A DNA stretch of 64,000 bases. Source: Lebetimonas natsushimae (GTDB lineage: Bacteria > Campylobacterota > Campylobacteria > Campylobacterales > Nautiliaceae). The notes below the pieces were generated by a model that saw only the letters and a program-made list of their open reading frames with translations, did no database searches and was not told the DNA's origin. Where the stretch lies: positions 558,001 to 622,000 of the forward strand of contig NZ_BDME01000001.1 in the NCBI RefSeq assembly GCF_002335445.1. Reading direction: 5' to 3'. Shown here one piece after another: positions 1,020-12,856 of the stretch (within the stretch, counting starts at the first letter, position 1; every line of letters starts with the position of its first letter). The translations under genes were made by a program, and so were the position numbers.

Positions 1020-2192
1020 ATGAATATTCACGAATATCAAGCAAAAGAGATATTTAGAAAATACGGCGTACCGACTCCAAGAGGGGGAGTCGCTTTTAGC
1101 GGGCCTGAAGCTAAAAAAGTGGCAGAAGAACTCGGTGGAAATTTATGGGTTGTAAAAGCTCAAATTCATGCAGGCGGTAGAGGAAAAGCTGGCGGTGTTA
1201 AACTTGCCAAAAGTCTTGATGAAGTTGAAAAACTTGCAGAAGAAATGATAGGGATGACTCTTGTAACTCACCAAACAGGGCCAGAAGGAAAAGTGGTAAA
1301 AAAAGTATATATTGAAGAGGGTGCCGATATCAAAGCAGAATATTACCTTGGAATGGTACTTGATAGGGCTCTTGAAATGCCTGTAATGATGGCTTCAACT
1401 GAAGGTGGAATGGAGATTGAAGAAGTAGCAGCTAAAACTCCTGAGAAGATTGTAAAAGTTGCAATAGATCCGACTATTGGATTTCAAGGATTTCATGCAA
1501 GAAAATTAGCTTTTGGTCTTGGACTTAGTAAAGATGAACAAAAAGAATTTATAAAATTTGCAAAAGCGCTTTATAATGTTTATATGGATAATGATGCGGA
1601 AATGATTGAAATTAACCCGCTTATTAAAACAGGGGAAGGTAAATTTTTAGCACTTGATGCAAAAATGGGATTTGATGATAACGCACTTTATAGACATCCT
1701 GATATTGCCCAAATGAGAGATTTGGACGAAGAAGAACCGACTGAAATCGAAGCTAAAAAATACGGTCTAAGTTATATTAAACTTGACGGAAACGTTGGAT
1801 GTATGGTAAACGGTGCGGGTCTTGCAATGGCAACAATGGATATTATTAAGCATGAAGGCGGTGAGCCTGCAAACTTCTTGGATGTTGGTGGTGGAGCAAA
1901 TCCTGACACTGTTGCAAAAGGGTTTGAAATTATTTTAAGCGATCCTAATGTAAAAAGTATATTTGTAAATATTTTCGGTGGAATAGTTAGATGTGACAGA
2001 ATTGCAAACGGTATCCTTCAGGCTACTGAAAAAGTGGAAGTAAATGTACCGGTGATTGTAAGACTTGACGGAACCAATGCTACTGAAGCTGCCCAAATTC
2101 TTAAAAACGCAAATATAAAAAACATTATTCCTGCGACTGATTTAAAAGACGGTGCACAAAAAGCTGTTAAAGCTGCGAAAGGAGAGTTATAA
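1020..2192 (+). CDS. sucC: Succinyl-CoA synthetase (ADP-forming) beta subunit
   Basis: The protein has 390 residues, the usual SucC length. It starts with [18 protein letters not shown], shows the ATP-grasp segment around [18 protein letters not shown], and ends with the ligase domain ([16 protein letters not shown]). It makes or cleaves succinyl-CoA with the SucD alpha subunit. In this organism it most likely runs in the reductive direction, producing the succinyl-CoA used by the oorDABC enzyme encoded nearby. Its stop codon overlaps the sucD start (TAATG), which implies translational coupling. A GAAAGGAGAA Shine-Dalgarno precedes ATG 1020. Confidence 0.96.
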
Positions 2193-3070
2193 TGAGTATT
2201 TTAGTAAACAAAGATACAAAAGTAATAGTTCAAGGTTTTACTGGAAAAGAGGGGACATTCCATTCAGAACAATGTATGGCATATGGAACTCAGATAGTAG
2301 GTGGTGTGACTCCTAATAAAGGTGGAATGACTCATCTTGGAAAACCTGTTTTTAATACAGTTGAAGATGCCATAAAAGCAACAGGGGCAACTGTTAGTAT
2401 GATTTTTGTACCTCCTGCATTTGTTGCAGACGCAGTTATGGAAGCTGCTGATGCAGGGATTGAACTTGCTGTAATCATTACAGAGGGTGCTCCTGTTAAA
2501 GATATGATGATGGCAAAACATTATGCAGTAAAAAAAGGCATGAAAACAATTGGACCAAACTGTCCTGGAATTATTACAGCTGAAGAGTGTAAAATAGGAA
2601 TAATGCCGGGCAATATTTTCAAAAAAGGAAATGTTGGCCTTATTTCAAAATCAGGAACTCTAACTTACGAAGCAAGTAACCAGGTAGTAAAAGCCGGATA
2701 TGGAATTACTACTGCTATTGGTATCGGTGGAGACCCGATTATCGGGCTAAGTTACAAAGAACTTTTACCAATGTTTGAAGCAGACCCGGAAACTGAAGCA
2801 ATCGTTATGATTGGTGAAATCGGGGGAGATTTGGAAATTCAGGCAGCAAAACTTATTAAAGAAAAAATTACAAAACCTGTAATCGCATTTATTGCTGGAC
2901 AAACTGCTCCTAAGGGTAAAAGAATGGGGCATGCCGGTGCAATTATCAGTGGAAGTAAAGGTACAGCGGCTGAAAAAATGGCGGCTTTAAGAGAAGCCGG
3001 AGCTTATGTAGTTGAATCTCCTGCAGATATCGGTGCTACTGTAGCTAAGGCTTTAAAAGAGAAAAAATAA
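2192..3070 (+). CDS. sucD: Succinyl-CoA synthetase (ADP-forming) alpha subunit
   Basis: The protein has 292 residues with the CoA-binding Rossmann N-terminus ([17 protein letters not shown]). [20 protein letters not shown] is present, and [10 protein letters not shown] carries the active-site histidine that is phosphorylated during catalysis. It overlaps sucC by one base and ends the + strand operon. A short hairpin with a T-run follows directly. The neighbouring fumarase and 2-oxoglutarate:ferredoxin oxidoreductase genes place it in the reductive TCA cycle. Confidence 0.96.
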
Positions 3071-3170: not shown

Positions 3171-3686
3171 TTATTTTTCTTTATTAATTTCTATTTTTTT
3201 TAAAAATTCAATTAATCCCTGCATTATATCCTTTGGAGTCGGAGGACATCCCGGGATATGGTAATCTACCGGTAAATCAACACCTTTTATGGCATATGTT
3301 TTTTCAAAAACTCCTAAATCTTTGGCACAATCGCCTAAAGTTATAACCCATTTTGGAGATGGCACCTGATTATATGCATCCCATACATGATGGTACATAT
3401 TTGCTGTCATTACGCCGCTTACAAGTAAAATATCAGCATGTCTCGGGCTTGCTACAAAATGGATTCCTAGTCTCTCTAAGTCATAATATGGGTTGCTTAG
3501 TGCATTACATTCTGCTTCACACGCATTGCAGCTTCCACTGTCAACCATTCTAATTGCAAGGCTGCCGGCAAAAAGTTTTTTTACTTTATCTTTTAAGTTT
3601 TTTTTAATTTCTTCTAACTCTTTATCAATTTCAGGATTTTCTGTAACAATTCCGGTTTTAAATCTCTCTTTCCAAAATCTAAGCAT
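3171..3686 (-). CDS. HyfI/NuoB-like iron-sulfur small subunit of a hydrogenase-related complex
   Basis: This 171-residue protein belongs to the NuoB/NiFe-hydrogenase small-subunit family. The cysteines expected to bind the proximal 4Fe-4S cluster are present: GSCNACEAEC (Cys53, Cys56, with Cys60 nearby), LGDC (Cys120) and IPGCPPTP (Cys147). The order of the operon (HyfB-, C-, E-, F-, G-, I-like) makes it the electron-transferring subunit. It is the last gene of the operon, 9 bp after the large-subunit gene. The cluster ligands are intact although the partner subunit has lost its NiFe site. No HyfA- or HyfH-type ferredoxin genes are found in the cluster. Confidence 0.85.
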   Translation of the reverse strand: MLRFWKERFKTGIVTENPEIDKELEEIKKNLKDKVKKLFAGSLAIRMVDSGSCNACEAECNALSNPYYDLERLGIHFVASPRHADILLVSGVMTANMYHHVWDAYNQVPSPKWVITLGDCAKDLGVFEKTYAIKGVDLPVDYHIPGCPPTPKDIMQGLIEFLKKIEINKEK

Positions 3687-3695
3687 TTCTTCTCC

Positions 3696-5060
3696 TTAAA
3701 GGTCATTTCCTGCATAACTTAAATCAAAACTTTTATTAATGAGTGGAAAATCTGCAATAATATCTTTATAAATTGCTGTGTGAAACGCTTGCCAGTTTAT
3801 ATGGCTCGGATCTCTTACATAAAATCTGTCAATTACACCGTCTTTTAATTTAATATACATAAATAGTTCACCTATACTGCTTTCAACAAATGAATGAAAT
3901 TCACCGTCATTAAATTCTTTAAATTCGATTTTTTCATTTGAATCCGTTTTACAGTTTCTGATTATTTGAATAGAATTTTTAATTTCCGCAATTCTTAAAA
4001 GAAATCTATCGCTCACTTCACCTTTTTGTCTTACTTGAATTTCGAAACCTCTATTTTTATACCACTGATTATTTCTTGTATCTATCGCTACGCCGCTGCT
4101 TCTTGCAGCAACTCCAACAACCCCATATCTTTGGGCTTTTTCATGGCTTAATCCTCCTGTGGTATCAAATCTGTCCCAAAGTGAAGGAATGTCAATTATC
4201 CAGTTTTCAAAAAAGTTGATTTTTTCCTCTAAATAATTTATAAATTTAAAAATTTCACTGAAATCATATTTCATCTCTTCATTTATAGCCCCAAATCCAA
4301 ATCTGTGTCCTGTGACTTTTGCTAAAGTTCTTCTTGCATCTTCACTGAGTCTGCTCATAAAAGCGAGAGCCGGAGCAAAACCGGCGTCATTTGGGATAAA
4401 ACCGAGATCTGTTAAATGGTGAATAATTCTTTCCATTTCAAGTAAAATTGCACTTTTGTTTTTAAATGATTCATTTAATTCTATCCCAGCTGATTTGGCT
4501 AAAATATTGAAAAACGCTATCTGGTATGCAATAGACTCATTACCGCTGATTCTCTCAATTATTTTTTTAATTTCCAATGGTTTTTTGTTTTCACACATTT
4601 TTTCTATGCTTCTATATTTGTAAAAATGTCTGACTTCCAAATGCAGCATATCTTCGCCGGCCTGTGAAAACTGAAAATGGCCGGGTTCTATAATTCCAGC
4701 GTGAATTGGACCGACAGGTACATAAAAAACACCTTCCCCTTTTACCTCTTCATATTCGTAAGGTTCAAATTCGCCGAACTCAATATCTATTTTTTGAAAA
4801 TTTTTTCTCATAGGGTAAATGTTTTTTGGAAATCTTTCGTGTTTAACCAAAGGTCTTGTATCCACACACCCTTCGAAATTTATCCCAAATTCATCCCTTA
4901 TTTTTCTCTCCATCCATATTGCAGCAGGATATTTGTTTGTAAGTGTCGAGGTGACAGGATTGTTTTTATCAATTTTTGTTTTTTTGATTTCTATGTCAAA
5001 TACATCAATTATCTCAAAATTATTTTCATTTTCTTGTGCGAATCTTGCTATAAGTCTCAT
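3696..5060 (-). CDS. HyfG/HycE-like large subunit lacking NiFe ligands
   Basis: This 454-residue protein is a fusion of a short NuoC-like domain (about residues 1-90) and a NuoD/hydrogenase large-subunit domain. In active group 4 hydrogenases the first NiFe motif is R-x-CGxC and the last is DPCxxC. Here the corresponding segments read RISGNESIAY (170-179) and RDPSHINWQ (416-424), so all four cysteines are replaced. It therefore should not bind NiFe and resembles complex I NuoD or the Ehr complexes. The flanking residues (GPIHAGIIEPGHFQF, TGHRFGFGAI) remain well conserved, which suggests an intact protein under selection. It overlaps the upstream gene by 4 bp. Confidence 0.85.
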   Translation of the reverse strand: MRLIARFAQENENNFEIIDVFDIEIKKTKIDKNNPVTSTLTNKYPAAIWMERKIRDEFGINFEGCVDTRPLVKHERFPKNIYPMRKNFQKIDIEFGEFEPYEYEEVKGEGVFYVPVGPIHAGIIEPGHFQFSQAGEDMLHLEVRHFYKYRSIEKMCENKKPLEIKKIIERISGNESIAYQIAFFNILAKSAGIELNESFKNKSAILLEMERIIHHLTDLGFIPNDAGFAPALAFMSRLSEDARRTLAKVTGHRFGFGAINEEMKYDFSEIFKFINYLEEKINFFENWIIDIPSLWDRFDTTGGLSHEKAQRYGVVGVAARSSGVAIDTRNNQWYKNRGFEIQVRQKGEVSDRFLLRIAEIKNSIQIIRNCKTDSNEKIEFKEFNDGEFHSFVESSIGELFMYIKLKDGVIDRFYVRDPSHINWQAFHTAIYKDIIADFPLINKSFDLSYAGNDL

Positions 5061-6430
5061 TTTACAATCCCTCCGATATAATTAAATGATGCAGGAGTTA
5101 ATAATATAATTAATGCCAAAGTAAACCAGAAAAGCATTATATATTCGCTTTTTTCAACACTCCCTTTTTTATCTTCCAAATATAAACCTTCCTGATAGAT
5201 ATTTACAAATTTATAAAAAATAACACTTAAAAATACCAGCATTAAAAGAATTGTAATTCCCATCAATTCAAAATATGCAGAATTTGTAGCTAAATCAATC
5301 ATAGATTTAAAACCGAATATTTCACTGAAAAACATTGGACTTGGAGGAAGTGATATTACGCCTAAAAGAAGTGCTGAAATTAAAACTTTTCCCATTGTAG
5401 GTAAATTTAAAGAACCTTTAAATTTAAATTTGCTGTTTTGTTCAAGTATTGCACCGCTTAAAAACAGAGCCGGTTTGAATAATGCGTGAGCCGCAAAATG
5501 CAAAAGAGCTGCAAAATAACCGCCGCTTATCCAGAAAATTGCAATTAAGCTCATATGTTCAATTCCTGAAAGAGAAAAAAGTCTGATATAATCTTTGCTT
5601 CTATAGATTAGAAAACTTACAATAAAAAGCGTAAAAAAAGCATAAATATACACAAATCCTATTAAATGGGAATAATTTACAGCCATTGCTATTTTTGAAA
5701 ACCTGAAAAATCCGAGAATTATTGCACTCTCTAAAATACCGCTAAAAAGAGCCCCCACAGGATAAATAGAATATCTTTCAATATCCGCTAGCCATAAATT
5801 CATGGGGAAAAATCCCATTTTAATAAACATTCCAACCGCTACTATCGCAAATCCCAATTCAAAAAGAAACGGTTTTAGTTTATTGGCATTTGCGTTTAAA
5901 TAATAAAAGTTCATTGCCTCTTCACCCAAAACAGGTTTACCAGAAGCGTATATTAAAATAATTCCAAATAGAATCAAAGCAATTGCAATAGCTCCGACAA
6001 TAAGATATTTCCATGCCTGTGTATGTGCTTCTTTTGTAGGAAGAATTTTAATCATATAAACAGTAGAAAGGGTTGCAAATTCAAGTCCTATCCAAAAAAC
6101 ACCCATGTTGTTTGCCAAAGTTGAAATAATTACCCCTAGCCAGAAAATTCCATAAAATCTGTAAAATTTTTTATAATGTTCCTCTTTTAAATTCATTCTT
6201 TTTTTAAGGCTTATTGCACCTATACTGATACCGATTGAAACAATTGATGATATTAATAAAACAAATGCGTTTAAATTGTCTACATAAAAAAGTGAATTAG
6301 TAAAATGATGTGTAAAAATATAAATTGCCGGAATAATAATTGTAAGAGCCACTAAACTCATTAAAATTCTGTTTATTTTAAAAAAGCTTAAAATAAAAAT
6401 TGCTATTGGAGGTATAAAAATAAGTTCCAT
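5057..6430 (-). CDS. HyfF-like antiporter-type membrane subunit
   Basis: This 457-residue protein is almost entirely hydrophobic, with about 14 membrane segments, and belongs to the NuoL/M/N-Mrp antiporter family. The glutamate in a membrane helix (WIGLEFATLSTVY) and a lysine in the helix before GFFPMNLWLAD match the charged residues of the ion-translocating half-channels. Together with the HyfB-like subunit it would give the complex two antiporter-type modules. It overlaps the large-subunit gene by 4 bp and is separated from the HyfE-like gene by no gap. Which ion (H+ or Na+) is pumped cannot be told from sequence. Confidence 0.85.
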   Translation of the reverse strand: MELIFIPPIAIFILSFFKINRILMSLVALTIIIPAIYIFTHHFTNSLFYVDNLNAFVLLISSIVSIGISIGAISLKKRMNLKEEHYKKFYRFYGIFWLGVIISTLANNMGVFWIGLEFATLSTVYMIKILPTKEAHTQAWKYLIVGAIAIALILFGIILIYASGKPVLGEEAMNFYYLNANANKLKPFLFELGFAIVAVGMFIKMGFFPMNLWLADIERYSIYPVGALFSGILESAIILGFFRFSKIAMAVNYSHLIGFVYIYAFFTLFIVSFLIYRSKDYIRLFSLSGIEHMSLIAIFWISGGYFAALLHFAAHALFKPALFLSGAILEQNSKFKFKGSLNLPTMGKVLISALLLGVISLPPSPMFFSEIFGFKSMIDLATNSAYFELMGITILLMLVFLSVIFYKFVNIYQEGLYLEDKKGSVEKSEYIMLFWFTLALIILLTPASFNYIGGIVK

Positions 6431-7018
6431 TTATTCTCCTTGATATCTGAAAAGTAGGTTTATGATAATAATTAACATTAATAAATCAACAAAAATACCA
6501 AGTTCTACAAGCATTGGCATTCCCTCGGTTGCTGAAATTCCAAGTAAAAACAGTGAATTTTCTATATTTAAAAAACCGATTATCTGAGCAGCTATGTTTT
6601 TATGTTCTATTGTTATAAGCATTGAAATAAATAAAGCCGCAATTGAAATAGCTATATAATTTTTGTGAATTTCAAAATTATTTATTATCGGTGTGATTAA
6701 ATAATATGTAAAAACTAATATTATTGGAATAATAATGACTTGATAATAAATGGGAATTTTGGGAATTATTTTTCTGGGAATATCGAATTTTTGTGTTAAA
6801 TATTTCATTATAACCGGTATTAACAAAGCTTTTATAATAATTGTCAAACTTCCTGAAATAAGCAGAGCTTTATCATTTATTTCAAGTCCAATAAGTAGTG
6901 CAATTAATCCCAAAAAAAGAGAATTTATCCCATACCAAAAATATAAGGCGTATAATCTTGTGGTAATTGCTTCAATTATCAAAAAGGCAATAAAGAATCC
7001 TATTAAAATATTTACCAT
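6431..7018 (-). CDS. HyfE-like membrane subunit
   Basis: This 195-residue protein has about six predicted membrane helices and no soluble domain. Its place between the HyfC-like and HyfF-like genes, its size and its fold pattern fit HyfE, the NuoK-like small membrane subunit of group 4 hydrogenase complexes. The sequence itself is weakly conserved, as is usual for HyfE, so the call leans on gene order. Start ATG 7018 follows the HyfC stop after one base, and the gene ends directly at the HyfF start. Confidence 0.75.
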   Translation of the reverse strand: MVNILIGFFIAFLIIEAITTRLYALYFWYGINSLFLGLIALLIGLEINDKALLISGSLTIIIKALLIPVIMKYLTQKFDIPRKIIPKIPIYYQVIIIPIILVFTYYLITPIINNFEIHKNYIAISIAALFISMLITIEHKNIAAQIIGFLNIENSLFLLGISATEGMPMLVELGIFVDLLMLIIIINLLFRYQGE

Positions 7019-7019
7019 T

Positions 7020-7943
7020 TTATGCTCCTAAAATATAATAAGTTGTAAGTGAAAGAAATCCGAATACAAATGATACAGCAAGTAAGTTTGGAACTTTAAA
7101 AAGTCTAAGCTTTGCTGTGTTTAGTTCCACTAAAGCAACTGCCAAACATATAAAAAGAAGTTTTATTATAAAAACTATAAATGCCAAACACCAGCATAAA
7201 TTTTCTCCAAAAGGTAAAAATAAAGTTGCAAACAAAGTTGCAAAAATCGCAAATTTTAAACTTGAGGCAAGTTCAATTAAAGCAAGATTGGCGCCGCTCA
7301 CATCCAAAACCATTGCTTCGTGAACCATTGTAAGTTCCAGGTGGGTTTCGGGGTTATCAACAGGAATACGACCGTTTTCCGCTATTAAAAGTATAAAAAA
7401 GCTTATAGCCGCTAAAATAAAACTTGCACTGTAAATTACTGGAAAATGTGTTGATAAAGATACTGCTGCTTTTGAAATGGAAATATTTCCGGCCATAAGT
7501 GAAATTGCAAAAATGGTTAATACCATTGCAGGTTCAACAAGTGCTGAAATAAATGCCTCCCTGCTTGAACCTATACCTCCAAAACTACTGGCACTGTCAA
7601 GTCCTAAAAGCATTAAAAAAAATGTTGATAAACTCATAAGCCCTGTAATTGTAAATGCGTCCATAAAAGAAACATAAAAACTTTTAGAGTAAATTGGTGG
7701 TAATAGGAACAATACTATTACAAGAGGTGAAATTACCAAAAAAGGTGATATTCTCGAGATAATGCTTGTTTCTTTTGAATAAATTACCTCTTTTTTGAAT
7801 AATTTTGCAATATCAATATACGGTTGGAAAGGTGAAAGAGGTTTTTTAAATAATAAATACATTTTTATTGATTTAATAAGACCTGTTAAAAAAGGTGAAA
7901 TTAAAGCTATAAAAATTATGGTTAAAAAATAATTGATAATCAT
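7020..7943 (-). CDS. HyfC/NuoH-like membrane subunit
   Basis: This 307-residue membrane protein is of the NuoH/HycD/HyfC family, which anchors the soluble arm to the membrane arm. Recognisable are the amphipathic N-terminal region PLSPFQPYIDIAKLFKKE and the segment RIPVDNPETHLELTMVHEAM, the acidic quinone-chamber loop of NuoH and its relatives. About eight membrane segments are seen. It overlaps the HyfB-like gene by 4 bp (ATGA type), indicating tight translational coupling within the operon. Confidence 0.88.
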   Translation of the reverse strand: MIINYFLTIIFIALISPFLTGLIKSIKMYLLFKKPLSPFQPYIDIAKLFKKEVIYSKETSIISRISPFLVISPLVIVLFLLPPIYSKSFYVSFMDAFTITGLMSLSTFFLMLLGLDSASSFGGIGSSREAFISALVEPAMVLTIFAISLMAGNISISKAAVSLSTHFPVIYSASFILAAISFFILLIAENGRIPVDNPETHLELTMVHEAMVLDVSGANLALIELASSLKFAIFATLFATLFLPFGENLCWCLAFIVFIIKLLFICLAVALVELNTAKLRLFKVPNLLAVSFVFGFLSLTTYYILGA

Positions 7944-9805
7944 TTTTTGTCTCCTAAAAGAAGGATTTTAGTGAAAATTGCTATTATAGTTATTTCAAGT
8001 ACTATATTCCCCCAGCTTATTTCGTGATAAAACACCCTGTAAGAGAATAATACTAAAATAATGAGATTGAAAATAAGTGCCACATATTTTGTTTTTTCAA
8101 AGTGTGAAATTTTATATACATAATAACTTATAATATTTGCTAGTTTTACAGTGCCACTATATAAACTTTCTTCAAATAACGGTTTTACATGAACTTCGTA
8201 AAAAGAATAACTGAATTTGGTTTTATGCCCTGAAAGTGTTTCTGTGATTTTATGTTCTTTAGGTCTGTAAAGCCAAGTAAAGAATTTTCTAATAGGTCCT
8301 GCGAAACCTGTTGCAGAGTATTGGTTTGTAGCTCCGACTTCATATCCGCAGGCCCATGTGTGATAAACTCTTTCTTTTATATTCAGTGATTTATAAATAA
8401 AGTAAATAACCGATGTTACAACAATCAAGGCAATTACTAAAATAAGAGGAGAAATGCTTCCTCCATTTCCGTTTACACTTTTCATAATCCAGATATTAGG
8501 AAAAATTTTATCATAAATGTTTAAAATAGGTGTTGAAAGATTTATAAATTTAATAATAAACGGTACAAACAACATTAAAGAAATTATAACTACCGCCATT
8601 AAAATCTGTCCGATTTGCATTAATGTGTTTACCTCTTTTGCATGTTTTGCATTTTCACTTCTGTGAAGTCCTAAAAATGAAATACCGAATGCTTTTACAA
8701 AACATGCGATTGCAAGTCCGCCAGTTAAGGCGAGTGCAAAAATTGAAAACGGAAAAGCAAGTTTTAGGGCAATATTGTTTATTCCGCCTGAGCTTAACAT
8801 ACTTTGAAATATCATCCATTCACTTAAAAATCCGTTTGTAGGTGGCAGGGCTGAAATTGAAATGGCCGCAATTAAAAAACTGAATGCGGTTATTGGCATA
8901 TTTTTGATGAGTCCTCCGTATTTTTCAATATTTTTTGTATGGGTTTCGTAAAGTACGCTTCCTGCACTCATAAATAAAAGGGATTTAAAACTCATATGGT
9001 TAAATGTGTGATAAATTGCCGCAATAAATGCAAAAGCACTGATAATCGGTAAATTCAGGGTGTTAAATATCATCCCAACACCTATACCTATTAATATAAT
9101 ACCTATATTTTCAACCGAATGGTTTGCAAGAAGCGCTTTTATATCGTGTTCACTGAGGGCATATAATACACCGATAAGAGCACTTAAAGCGCCTATTATT
9201 AAAATTATTATTCCCCATTCAATCGGCCAGTAGTTAAACATAAAAAGAAATTTTAAAAATGCAAAAATAGCAACTTTTAGCATTACTCCGCTCATTAATG
9301 CAGATACCGGAGACGGGGCTGCCGGGTGAGCATATGGAAGCCAGACGTGTAATGGAACGGCTCCCGCTTTACTTAAAAATCCAAGTGACATTAATAAAAA
9401 TAATAATGTAGGATATTTAAAATTTTGGATATTTAATTTCAAATAATCAAAAGACATTGTTAAATTGTCCGGTGACACCAACAAGAAAAAGAAGAGAATA
9501 AATACAAAACCAAAATGTGTCATAAAAAAGTAAAATCTTGCCGCTTTTAAATTTTTAGGAGTCGGTTCGGTTAAAATAAGCTGCCATGAACTGAGGCTCA
9601 TGAGTTCCCAAAAAAATAAAAATACAAGAATATTGTTACTGAGTACCACACCAAACATTGAAATAATGAAAGTAAAATAGTGTAATAAAAAATGAAATTT
9701 TCTTTCTATATGGTTTAGATATCCTGCCATATAAAATAGATTTGGAATTACACCTAGTAATATTAAAAAACCAAACAACATTGAAAAAGGGTTAAAATCA
9801 AACAT
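7940..9805 (-). CDS. HyfB/HycC-like antiporter-type membrane subunit
   Basis: This 621-residue protein is the first gene of the operon. It has the NuoL-type core with the helix glutamate (LFFWELMSLSSWQL) and the conserved lysine helix GFLSKAGAVPLHVWLPYAHPA. The C-terminal extension contains YHTWACGYEVGATNQYSATG, a signature of HyfB/HycC/EchA subunits, followed by an additional membrane helix. It likely translocates ions driven by redox chemistry in the soluble arm. The operon is transcribed leftward and divergently from oorDABC, with a shared 215-bp upstream region. Confidence 0.88.
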   Translation of the reverse strand: MFDFNPFSMLFGFLILLGVIPNLFYMAGYLNHIERKFHFLLHYFTFIISMFGVVLSNNILVFLFFWELMSLSSWQLILTEPTPKNLKAARFYFFMTHFGFVFILFFFLLVSPDNLTMSFDYLKLNIQNFKYPTLLFLLMSLGFLSKAGAVPLHVWLPYAHPAAPSPVSALMSGVMLKVAIFAFLKFLFMFNYWPIEWGIIILIIGALSALIGVLYALSEHDIKALLANHSVENIGIILIGIGVGMIFNTLNLPIISAFAFIAAIYHTFNHMSFKSLLFMSAGSVLYETHTKNIEKYGGLIKNMPITAFSFLIAAISISALPPTNGFLSEWMIFQSMLSSGGINNIALKLAFPFSIFALALTGGLAIACFVKAFGISFLGLHRSENAKHAKEVNTLMQIGQILMAVVIISLMLFVPFIIKFINLSTPILNIYDKIFPNIWIMKSVNGNGGSISPLILVIALIVVTSVIYFIYKSLNIKERVYHTWACGYEVGATNQYSATGFAGPIRKFFTWLYRPKEHKITETLSGHKTKFSYSFYEVHVKPLFEESLYSGTVKLANIISYYVYKISHFEKTKYVALIFNLIILVLFSYRVFYHEISWGNIVLEITIIAIFTKILLLGDKK

Positions 9806-10020: not shown

Positions 10021-10320
10021 ATGGCTTTAAATGTTGATTTTAAATTAAAAGCTCCAGCGAATACACCTGTATGGGTAGATGAAGCAAAATGTAAAAGTTG
10101 TGAATTATGTGTTGATTTTTGTCCAACCGGTGTTTTGGAAATGGTACCGGATCCTCATAATATTTTAGGTCAGATGGTTAAAGTATCTCATCCTGAATAT
10201 TGTATCGGATGCAGGGAATGTGAACTTGAATGTCCTGATTTCTGTATTTTTGTAGCTGAAAGAGATGAATATAAATTTAAAAAGCTTAATGAAGTTAAGA
10301 AGTTAAAAGGAGAAAAATAA
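10021..10320 (+). CDS. oorD: 2-oxoglutarate:ferredoxin oxidoreductase, delta (ferredoxin) subunit
   Basis: This 99-residue protein has two 4Fe-4S motifs, CKSCELCVDFCP and CIGCRECELECP, typical of the small ferredoxin subunit of the four-subunit 2-oxoacid oxidoreductases. The gene order oorDABC is the one known from Campylobacter and Helicobacter. In a reductive TCA cycle the complex reductively carboxylates succinyl-CoA to 2-oxoglutarate with reduced ferredoxin. Its TAA overlaps the oorA start (TAATG). Confidence 0.94.
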   Translation: MALNVDFKLKAPANTPVWVDEAKCKSCELCVDFCPTGVLEMVPDPHNILGQMVKVSHPEYCIGCRECELECPDFCIFVAERDEYKFKKLNEVKKLKGEK

Positions 10321-11456
10321 TGAGAGAAGTAGTTAGTACTGGAAATAAACTTGCAGCCTTGGCGGCAATAGATGCAGGGTGCAGATTTTTTGGCGGATAT
10401 CCTATTACCCCTTCAAGTGAAATTGCACATGAAATGAGTAGATTACTTCCAAAAGTAGGAGGAGTGTTTATTCAGATGGAAGATGAAATCGCAGGTATTT
10501 CAGTGGCACTTGGTGCCAGTATGAGTGGTACTAAAGCGATGACAAACACATCAGGTCCAGGTATTTCACTTAAAGCAGAACAAATAGGGCTTGCATTTAT
10601 GGCTGAGGTGCCTCTTGTAATTACAAACGTTATGAGAGGAGGTCCATCAACAGGACTTCCAACAAGACCTGCCCAGCAGGATATTCTTCAGGCACTTGCT
10701 CCGACTCATGGTGATTATCAGTCAATTGCGTTATGTCCTGGAAGTTTAGATGAGTGTTATACCGAAACAGTCAGAGCATTTAATCTGGCTGAGAGATTTA
10801 TGACACCAGTGTTTGTGTTACTTGATGAAACACTTGGACATATGGTAGGAAAAGCTGTTTTACCTCCAAAAGATGAAGTTGAAAAAAATATAGTAAACAG
10901 AAGGGTATATGAAGGAGATCCTGCTGAATATGAACCTTACAATGTACCTGCGGATGAGCCTGCAATTTTAAATCCGTTCTTTAAAGGATACAGATATCAC
11001 ATTACCGGACTTCATCACGGACCTACGGGATTCCCGACTGAAGATGCTAAACTTTCACAAGAACTAATTGACAGATTGTTTAATAAAATCTTGGCTCATA
11101 AAGACGAAATAGAAAGTTATGAAGAATATATGATGGATGATGCAGATATTTTAGTAATTGCTTATGGAAGTGTATCTCTTGCAGCAAAAGAAGCTATTAG
11201 ACAATTAAGAGAAGAAGGTATTAAAGTAGGACTCTTTAGACCAATTACATTATGGCCAAGCCCTGAAGAAAAAATAGATGAAGTATGTAATAAATTTGAT
11301 AAAGTATTGGTGGCTGAAATGAATAAAGGTCAGTATTTTAAAGAAATTCAAAGAGCAAGCGGAAGAAAAGCGGAAACTTTTGAAACATTATTTAAAGCAA
11401 ACGGAAGACCTATAAGTCCTGCAGAATTTAAAGCAAAAATAAAAGAAATGGTATAA
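10320..11456 (+). CDS. oorA: 2-oxoglutarate:ferredoxin oxidoreductase, alpha subunit
   Basis: This 378-residue protein begins with the pyrimidine-binding domain signature (GNKLAALAAIDAGCRFFGGYPITPSSE: shown here only as residues 5-31 of that type). TNTSGPGISLKAEQIGLA and RGGPSTGLPTRPAQQD are hallmarks of KorA/OorA. The C-terminal transketolase-like domain includes YGSVSLAAKEAI. It contributes to the thiamine diphosphate active site with OorB. It lies between oorD and oorB in a compact operon, overlapping oorD by one base. Confidence 0.95.
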   Translation: MREVVSTGNKLAALAAIDAGCRFFGGYPITPSSEIAHEMSRLLPKVGGVFIQMEDEIAGISVALGASMSGTKAMTNTSGPGISLKAEQIGLAFMAEVPLVITNVMRGGPSTGLPTRPAQQDILQALAPTHGDYQSIALCPGSLDECYTETVRAFNLAERFMTPVFVLLDETLGHMVGKAVLPPKDEVEKNIVNRRVYEGDPAEYEPYNVPADEPAILNPFFKGYRYHITGLHHGPTGFPTEDAKLSQELIDRLFNKILAHKDEIESYEEYMMDDADILVIAYGSVSLAAKEAIRQLREEGIKVGLFRPITLWPSPEEKIDEVCNKFDKVLVAEMNKGQYFKEIQRASGRKAETFETLFKANGRPISPAEFKAKIKEMV

Positions 11457-11465
11457 GGAGAAAAA

Positions 11466-12296
11466 ATGGCATTTAATTACGATTATTATTTAAGAACAGA
11501 TAAAATGCCGACACTTTGGTGTTGGGGATGTGGTGATGGTATTATTATGAAAGCCGTTATCAGAGCTATGGCAAAACTTGGTTGGGATAAAAATGATGTA
11601 TGCGTAGTTAGCGGAATCGGATGTAGTGGAAGATTTTCTAGTTATATTGATGCAAACACTGTGCATACTACTCACGGTAGAACACTTGCATACGCAACAG
11701 GTGTAAAACTTGCAAATCCTGATAAACATGTAATCGTAGTTGCAGGTGATGGTGACGGGCTTGCAATCGGTGGTAATCATACTATTCATGCATGTAGAAG
11801 AAATATTGATTTAAATTTTATTTTGGTGGATAATTTTATTTACGGACTTACAAATTCACAGGTTTCACCTACAACTCCAAAAGGTGCATGGTCTGTAACA
11901 ACTCAGTACGGGAATATAGATCCTACTTTTGATGCCTGTGAATTGGCCAAAGGTGCTGGAGCTACTTTTGTAGCAAGAGAGAGCGTGGCTGAAGCTCAAA
12001 AATTGGAAAGAATATTTGTTAAAGCATTTGAGCATAAAGGGTTCAGTTTTGTAGATGTTCATTCAAACTGCCATGTAAACTTCGGTAGAAAAAATAAATT
12101 AGGACAGGCTAAGAAAAATATGGATTGGATTGAAAGTAATTTAATTCCAAAAGCGAAATGGGATAAATTGAGTGATGAAGAAAAATATGAATTAAAACAA
12201 CAGGGTAAAAAACCAAGGGGAATTTTATATCAAAAACAAGAACCTGAATATTGCGAAGAATATTATAAATTAATTGAAAGAGTAAGGGGCAAATAA
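11466..12296 (+). CDS. oorB: 2-oxoglutarate:ferredoxin oxidoreductase, beta subunit
   Basis: This 276-residue thiamine-diphosphate-binding subunit shows the early LWCWGCGDG cysteine motif, GIGCSGRFSSYID, and the Mg-ThDP motif GDGDGLAIGGNHTIHA with downstream NFIYGLTNSQVSPTTP. These are diagnostic of KorB/OorB. It is followed with a one-base overlap by oorC. It combines with OorA, OorC and OorD for CO2 fixation onto succinyl-CoA. Confidence 0.96.
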   Translation: MAFNYDYYLRTDKMPTLWCWGCGDGIIMKAVIRAMAKLGWDKNDVCVVSGIGCSGRFSSYIDANTVHTTHGRTLAYATGVKLANPDKHVIVVAGDGDGLAIGGNHTIHACRRNIDLNFILVDNFIYGLTNSQVSPTTPKGAWSVTTQYGNIDPTFDACELAKGAGATFVARESVAEAQKLERIFVKAFEHKGFSFVDVHSNCHVNFGRKNKLGQAKKNMDWIESNLIPKAKWDKLSDEEKYELKQQGKKPRGILYQKQEPEYCEEYYKLIERVRGK

Positions 12297-12856
12297 TGAG
12301 AAAACAATTAAGATTTACAGGAGTTGGAGGACAGGGTGTCCTTCTTGCCGGTGAAATTTTGGCAAGATCATACGTGAGAGCTGGAAAATACGGAGTGCAG
12401 GTCGGTACTTATACTTCTCAGGTTAGGGGTGGTCCTACTAAAGTTGATATTATTTTAGATGACGAGCCTATTCTTTATCCTTATGCGGTTGACGGTGAAA
12501 TTGATTTTATGTTAAGTGTTGCTGATAAATCTTATCAATTATTTAAAGACGGTGTAAAAGAGGGCGGAATTATTGTATATGAACCAAACTTGGTTTATCC
12601 AAGTGATGATGACAAAGCAAGATGGAAAATGTTTCCTATTGAAGTAATTACTATTGCAAAAGAGCAGGTAGGAAACGTTATTACCCAATCAGTTGTAGCG
12701 CTTGCAATTGCAACAAGAATGAATAATCTTGATAAAGAAATGGTATATGAAACAATGATTCAAACCGTACCTCCAAAAGCAGTGGAAATTAATAAAAAAG
12801 CATTCGAACTTGGTTATCAAGAAGCTGAAGAAGTTTTAGCTAAATATTCTTCTTAA
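12296..12856 (+). CDS. oorC: 2-oxoglutarate:ferredoxin oxidoreductase, gamma subunit
   Basis: This 186-residue protein has the gamma-domain signature FTGVGGQGVLLAGEILA near the N-terminus, followed by YTSQVRGGPTKVDI, which helps bind CoA in this family. It completes the four-subunit OOR. It overlaps oorB by one base and ends the operon. The 63-bp gap after it is T-rich but holds no convincing hairpin terminator. Confidence 0.95.
   Translation: MRKQLRFTGVGGQGVLLAGEILARSYVRAGKYGVQVGTYTSQVRGGPTKVDIILDDEPILYPYAVDGEIDFMLSVADKSYQLFKDGVKEGGIIVYEPNLVYPSDDDKARWKMFPIEVITIAKEQVGNVITQSVVALAIATRMNNLDKEMVYETMIQTVPPKAVEINKKAFELGYQEAEEVLAKYSS

Follow-up and report, generated by a model that had tools for sequence, protein, structure and literature searches.

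What does a hydrogenase-like complex do once every ligand of its NiFe centre has been replaced? The question is raised by six genes at positions 3171-9805 of a 64,000-nucleotide stretch of Lebetimonas natsushimae DNA (contig NZ_BDME01000001.1, positions 558,001 to 622,000; this whole stretch is called the window below). An initial annotation had described them as encoding a hydrogenase-like complex without NiFe ligands that kept its iron-sulfur subunit and two antiporter-type subunits. Such Ehr (hydrogenase-related) complexes are a known kind, and their reaction is a long-standing question.

The genes form six minus-strand open reading frames running from 9805 to 3171, overlapping or nearly so. 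All six have family matches, and their NCBIfam and Pfam assignments give a HyfB/C/E/F/G/I-like order (Table 1). We borrow the subunit names EhrA, B, C, D, L and S from Geobacter sulfurreducens Ehr (EhrA-EhrD, EhrL and EhrS; GSU0739-45; PMC7894505). A NuoH homologue, antiporter-like NuoL/M/N homologues and a small subunit are all present, as in the Ehr class that Marreiros and colleagues defined in 2013 (cited in PMC6349859). There is very little doubt that the operon encodes a complete six-subunit Ehr complex.

Table 1. Positions in the window of the Ehr genes, of the motifs discussed and of the neighbouring genes
Feature	Position	Strand	Description
EhrA	7940..9805	-	HyfB/NuoL-like antiporter-type subunit, 621 residues, first gene of the operon; NCBIfam hydrogenase 4 subunit B, E 6e-160
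EhrB	7020..7943	-	HyfC/NuoH-like membrane anchor with E-channel, 307 residues; PF00146, E 3e-32
EhrC	6431..7018	-	HyfE-like membrane subunit, 195 residues; NCBIfam hydrogenase 4 membrane subunit, E 2e-14
EhrD	5057..6430	-	HyfF-like antiporter-type subunit, 457 residues; NCBIfam hydrogenase 4 subunit F, E 5e-51
EhrL	3696..5060	-	HyfG-like large subunit, 454 residues; PF00329 and PF00346
EhrL 116-129, VGPIHAGIIEPGHF	4674..4715	-	beta1-beta2 loop; E125 at the HycE Glu193 position
EhrL R170-S176, RISGNES	4533..4553	-	at HycE RVCGICG; C241 replaced by S172, C244 by E175
EhrL 393-398, ESSIGE	3867..3884	-	canopy arginine site (HycE R478), here I396
EhrL 416-422, RDPSHIN	3795..3815	-	ordinary superfamily motif, no ligand site
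EhrL 444-454, SFDLSYAGNDL-COOH	3699..3731	-	at SLDPCYSCTD; C531 replaced by S448, C534 by G451
EhrS	3171..3686	-	HyfI/NuoB-like small subunit, 171 residues; PF01058, E 3e-26; one [4Fe-4S] cluster predicted
EhrS C53-x2-C56 and extra C60	3507..3530	-	cluster motif, from alignment
EhrS C120	3327-3329	-	remaining cluster ligand, from alignment
EhrS C147	3246-3248	-	remaining cluster ligand, from alignment
sucC and sucD	1020..3070	+	succinyl-CoA synthetase; convergent neighbour, outside the complex
oorDABC	10021..12856	+	2-oxoglutarate:ferredoxin oxidoreductase; divergent neighbour

A hydrogenase-type complex without NiFe ligands

In EhrL a NuoC-like domain at the N-terminus is joined to a NuoD-like one. 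Among solved structures the best relative of EhrL by sequence is Escherichia coli HycE (PDB entry 7z0s, chain E), which Foldseek likewise returns as the nearest fold of a low-confidence model. Alignment with Ehr, Hyf and complex I large subunits gives substitutions at all four ligand positions, HycE C241, C244, C531 and C534 falling on S172, E175, S448 and G451. RISGNES indeed stands in place of R-x-CGxC, as had been annotated. RDPSHIN, previously read as the remnant of DPCxxC, was misplaced: its aligned counterparts are RAATYAN in HycE and RSPSFSN/RTPSFAH in complex I, which rules it out as a ligand site. The true counterpart of DPCYSC is DLSYAG (EhrL 446-451), three residues ahead of the C-terminus, and because this motif has really replaced the cysteines the loss of all four ligands still holds. 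EhrL terminates at NDL and lacks the C-terminal extension of HycE/HyfG, as expected if NiFe-dependent processing does not occur.

Orthologs with 54-80% identity are present in 29 of 397 Campylobacterota genomes (those at least 90% complete), and RISGNES-like and SYAG motifs are seen in all 35 Campylobacterota large subunits that were aligned; the ligand cysteines, whose presence in relatives would have pointed to a sequence error here, are absent from every one of them. The ratio of nonsynonymous to synonymous substitution rates (dN/dS) between the window and a congener is 0.06-0.12 for the six genes, rough values with dS >1, and indicates purifying selection. Together, the shared motif loss and these ratios rule out a sequencing error or a pseudogene. 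HypD is missing from eight of 33 Ehr-carrying genomes, including a single contig estimated to be 100% complete (G251) in which the only PF00346 proteins are NuoD and EhrL, so in those hosts Ehr is not a hydrogenase. Two CxxC motifs, Hyp dependence and a two-cluster HyfH/HycF/EchF subunit, which mark group 4 [NiFe] hydrogenases, are all lacking, and the complex is almost certainly not a hydrogenase.

A maximum-likelihood tree, built without Geobacter Ehr and to be read cautiously for some long-branch rows, unites all ligand-less large subunits in a single clade (support 100/100) that is sister to the formate hydrogenlyase (FHL)/Hyf branch. This fits a single loss of NiFe. The clade spans the Campylobacterota Ehr, plasmid-borne Ehr (Burkholderia, Cupriavidus, Rhizobium, Azospirillum, Rhodococcus, Methylocalor and Allomeiothermus) and a fluoride-associated group; within it the Campylobacterota Ehr make up a monophyletic group (100/100) with a long stem. 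The Ehr identity rests on this placement and on the retention of the pump and E-channel residues.

EhrA is identical to HycC at H222, K239, H291, E294, H328, H332, K336 and E391, and HycC D354 is replaced by N292. EhrB keeps identical counterparts of the HycD E-channel glutamates E130, E138, E189, E199 and E206, the glutamates retained in EhrB being listed as E129, E137, E189, E199 and E209; HycD E201 corresponds to His201, and Y102 and R108 are not retained in this alignment. The roles of these HycC and HycD residues in FHL are described in PMC9474812. Conserved residues of EhrC are K63, E153, E172 and D178, and those of EhrD are E117, K204, H311, H315, K319 and E370. Both antiporter-type subunits are thus intact with respect to HycC-type pump residues, in agreement with the initial annotation, and the Glu/Lys/His chain and E-channel characteristic of pumps of the complex I superfamily are in place. 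Since these residues and E125 of EhrL are kept, the complex is predicted to translocate ions, with good probability.

The former NiFe pocket and electron entry

Judged from the alignments, no part of EhrL is better conserved than the former NiFe pocket, which is remodelled and constrained. In 16 divergent Ehr representatives, 20 of 35 positions are invariant in the three former NiFe loops, picked because of their ligand positions, compared with 46 of the 419 remaining positions (odds ratio 10.8, p 7e-10). E125 occupies the position of the glutamate that is the proton donor in FHL (PMC9474812), and D446 is kept in Campylobacterota Ehr. The clade has gained E175 (Glu in 34/35, Asp in 1/35) and H214 (33/35). 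All 35 Campylobacterota Ehr carry Ile or Leu at the canopy position, where the alignment has Arg for each of 11 other Ehr and each of 13 hydrogenases, and Arg or Lys for complex I. According to the residue roles given in PMC7684303 and PMC9474812, the canopy Arg/Lys matters for quinone reduction. His38 and Tyr87, the headgroup residues of the complex I quinone site (Thermus Nqo4 numbering; PMC7684303), are absent from EhrL in the alignment: the His38 position falls within the EPGH loop and that of Tyr87 is G173. EhrL therefore lacks both hallmarks of a complex I quinone reductase, and the quinone-linked module proposed initially loses this footing.

The closest PDB matches of EhrS are MbhJ and HycG. 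As had been noted from the sequence, the small subunit keeps its cluster cysteines (C53, C56, C120 and C147), and all four are present in every Campylobacterota EhrS row; the additional C60 is clade-wide and seen only in these rows. The CxxC loop VDSGSCNACEAE is of full hydrogenase-type length and aligns without gaps to MbhJ and HycG. It does not have the three-residue shortening of the Pyrococcus MBS complex, where the shorter loop opens the cluster to polysulfide at one Fe (PMC7684303). With H38/Y87 and the canopy Arg lost and the EhrS loop full-length, Ehr reproduces neither the quinone site of complex I nor the MBS site. The AlphaFold model of EhrL matches HycE in global fold; its mean confidence score (pLDDT) is 58, with pocket loops <50, and for this reason the pocket geometry is left uninterpreted. 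A search of the open-access literature found nothing on Ehr in Campylobacterota, and judged from it the clade-specific pocket appears to be undescribed.

A docking subunit of the HyfH/NuoI type is absent from the cassette in the window and in the relatives checked in full. The search for such a ferredoxin-type subunit elsewhere, which the initial annotation had suggested, gave no dedicated HyfH-like protein in six genomes queried with E. coli HyfH. The one good match in the complete genome G251, at 99 kb, is probably NuoI since it lies about 10 kb from nuoD at 89.7 kb. In more divergent Ehr (G258, G226 and Burkholderia cenocepacia) a ferredoxin-like domain is fused to the small subunit, and electron entry therefore differs among Ehr lineages.

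Relatives and genomic context

Compared by description only, Geobacter Ehr has the same kind of subunits (PMC7894505), antiporter-type subunits included, and likewise no NiFe ligands. The Campylobacterota clade is marked by E175, H214, the Ile/Leu at the canopy and EhrS Cys60. The Campylobacterota cassette has one EhrA gene, whereas the Geobacter name EhrA-1 implies more than one. The plasmid Ehr of the genera listed above other than Allomeiothermus (L072-L076, L094, L101-L103) share six subunits at 30-35% identity, the GPxHAGxIEPGHF loop and a SYAG-type C-terminus, with a rearranged gene order in Rhodococcus. They differ in keeping the canopy Arg and in having mostly Asn at 446, Ser/Thr/Ala at 175 and Asn at 214. 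The formate hydrogenlyase/hydrogenase 4 systems of E. coli (HycE, HyfG), the sister clade with the best solved relative, share E193 and D529 with Ehr but have the four NiFe cysteines, the C-terminal extension and the HycF/HyfH and HycB/HyfA subunits.

Four Ehr-like loci (L096, L099, L100 and L104; Mycobacterium branderi, Alicyclobacillus, Burkholderia cenocepacia and Caballeronia plasmids) lie amid multiple fluoride riboswitches (RF01734) and, where annotated, CrcB and DUF190 genes, in some cases also enolase, pyrophosphatase and MutS-domain genes. Their ligand-less large subunits group together with support of 100/90. The L099 large subunit comes after a riboswitch, with no other Ehr subunit detected in the 19 kb examined. 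Another ligand-less large subunit from Campylobacterota (L069, G047:C63), with TAGTT and LGLSVAEND motifs and a six-gene cluster, falls with this group on a long branch (90/61). All four cluster cysteines are lost from the small subunits of Allomeiothermus (L095:10254-11126; Thr/Asp/Glu/Ser instead) and M. branderi (L096:10303-11097; Asn/Asp/Asp/Ala), with large and membrane subunits still encoded. From the fluoride-linked and cysteine-less cases, a redox-independent role for parts of the family is conceivable. The window shows neither fluoride riboswitches nor loss of EhrS cysteines.

In the window the cassette is inverted between sucD and oorD. The initial annotation had taken the oorDABC neighbourhood as a hint of coupling. 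In eight relatives oorDABC comes immediately after sucD without an intervening Ehr cassette, the other Ehr-carrying genomes examined have the cassette elsewhere, and only the window and one congener share the oor adjacency. The most plausible account is that in that genus the cassette was inserted, or moved, into an ancestral sucCD-oorDABC junction. Being limited to one genus and to such a junction, the adjacency gives no support for coupling, and a conserved oor linkage is ruled out. The suggested link to CO2 fixation finds weak support: ATP-citrate lyase is found in 28 of 29 Ehr-carrying genomes, which span nine families, and in 91 of 368 others (Fisher p 4e-15, uncorrected for phylogeny). 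This co-occurrence suggests that Ehr is linked to autotrophy; in the family with 99 genomes (f9) one carries Ehr, so that a within-family test has no power.

The cassette consists of the same six genes in the relatives checked in full, and clustering of neighbouring genes gave no recurrent partner, only shared synteny among close relatives. At one locus (G055, L058:10604-16010) EhrL and EhrS are separated by a 5.5 kb block with c-type-cytochrome-like, cytochrome b-like and pyrophosphatase-like genes and a response regulator/histidine kinase pair; it is not repeated in other loci. Another (L126, G358:C27) has two tandem cassettes: EhrL and EhrS of the Campylobacterota-type one are separated by the second, more proteobacterial-like cassette and by an amino-acid-permease-like gene. 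A search for related loci in genome contigs gave one ortholog and three complex I proteins. Two further group 4 hydrogenase large subunits of the Ech/Coo type, with NiFe motifs intact, are encoded in the window's own genome (G000:C6:151899-152942 and G000:C2:383213-384208). In a single alignment, the NuoCD-like protein of that genome (552 residues; L064, G000:C2:115486-116610) shows RICFMDN at the Tyr87 position and GPTHPA-SGP at the His38 position, and this complex I-type enzyme may have an unusual acceptor site too. A promoter scan gave 49 hits compared with 38.5 expected.

Possible mechanism and alternatives

Our preferred reading, held tentatively and at a little less than even confidence, is that Ehr is an ion-translocating redox module fed by a soluble low-potential carrier, in which NiFe was lost once in the Hyf/FHL branch. 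As the docking subunit with its two further clusters is missing, a soluble ferredoxin or flavodoxin would exchange electrons directly with the single EhrS [4Fe-4S] cluster; we regard exchange with such a carrier as an evenly balanced prediction. Electrons would then pass to or from a small acceptor in the remodelled EhrL/EhrS/EhrB chamber, where NiFe formerly resided. Menaquinone is the single likeliest candidate for this acceptor, in itself rather unlikely. Protonation of E125 would be relayed through the EhrB E-channel to EhrA, EhrC and EhrD, moving H+ or Na+. The Oor-flavodoxin-complex I route of Campylobacter jejuni is a precedent (PMC4257069): its flavodoxin-fed Nuo, a complex I without the NADH module, may be a physiological analogue in which a low-potential carrier drives a pump, although complex I differs from Ehr in having NuoI, a tandem-Cys N2 cluster and the His38/Tyr87 quinone site. 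In autotrophs using the reductive tricarboxylic acid (rTCA) cycle the complex might run in reverse, spending the ion gradient to make reduced ferredoxin. A paper on Nautilia proposed that group 4 complexes spend the ion gradient on reducing the ferredoxin needed in CO2 fixation (PMC2628731), and by analogy Ehr could do likewise.

Several observations weigh against this scheme. The chamber has none of the complex I headgroup residues and its canopy Arg/Lys is Ile/Leu throughout the clade. Donor and acceptor, like redox activity itself, its direction and the ion, are inferred. Aerobic soil bacteria carry other Ehr on plasmids, where no ferredoxin metabolism is evident in the vicinity. Most genomes with ATP-citrate lyase (91/119) do not have this Ehr, and the correlation is phylogeny-uncorrected. 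Finally, redox activity may be dispensable in the family, since L095 and L096 have lost the cluster ligands.

The last point leads to the foremost alternative, a redox-independent ion transporter or gate in which EhrL/EhrS would be a ligand-binding or conformational module on the antiporter-type arm and the cluster would be structural. It accommodates the cysteine-less small subunits that remain accompanied by large and membrane subunits, the fluoride-riboswitch setting of some operons, which is one of stress rather than respiration, and the absence of a docking subunit here. We consider it unlikely, as a purely structural role leaves unexplained why the four cysteines are strictly retained in the Campylobacterota, together with the clade-wide Cys60. 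On a broader scale, the Ehr family may be turning redox enzymes into transporters driven by a ligand or an ion: NiFe would have been lost once, docking clusters in several lineages and the last [4Fe-4S] ligands at least twice, with pocket and pump under selection. In Campylobacterota the acidic E125/E175/D446 pocket, from which the canopy Arg is lost, would then bind a new ligand that controls ion flow; the chance of this whole scenario appears small.

Many Nautiliales and Sulfurovum-like bacteria live with sulfur. The sulfur association of many relatives would suit a sulfane-sulfur (polysulfide) reductase passing electrons from reduced ferredoxin to polysulfide with ion pumping. Its model, Pyrococcus MBS (6u8y), is a complex I-superfamily member with a pump arm and with neither NiFe ligands nor quinone residues (PMC7684303). 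This reading has a similarly small chance. The MBS CxxC loop is three residues shorter, leaving the cluster with three Cys, while that of EhrS is full-length; of the four cysteines, two persist near the cluster in MbsL and none in EhrL; MBS has the docking subunit MbsN with two clusters, and a Mrp module (PMC7684303); and other Ehr are found in aerobic soil bacteria.

In a further alternative, E125, E175, D446, S172, S448, H120 and H214 would form a hard-ligand site where an ion other than nickel, or a cationic substrate, binds and so drives or gates the pump. In favour of such a site, the clade-specific gain of E175 and H214 and loss of the canopy Arg make the pocket acidic. The site is putative and improbable: the AlphaFold model is unreliable in exactly these loops, and other Ehr lineages mostly have Asn/Thr/Ser at these positions and keep the Arg. 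A hydrogenase, whether functional as such, in decay or wrongly sequenced, is hardly credible, the overall similarity to Hyf/FHL being outweighed by the ligand loss, the ...NDL terminus, the hosts without HypD and the low dN/dS.

Ehr complexes are phylogenetic neighbours of both hydrogenases and complex I, and the Campylobacterota clade is a clean case with six genes, one predicted cluster, no docking subunit and a highly conserved pocket. Because some hosts have no NiFe maturation, any activity there must be Ehr's own. The relatives without predicted small-subunit cluster ligands raise the question whether such a pump needs electrons at all. Once known, the Ehr reaction would show how a hydrogenase-type pump runs without its metal centre, and it might reveal how rTCA autotrophs poise their ferredoxin.

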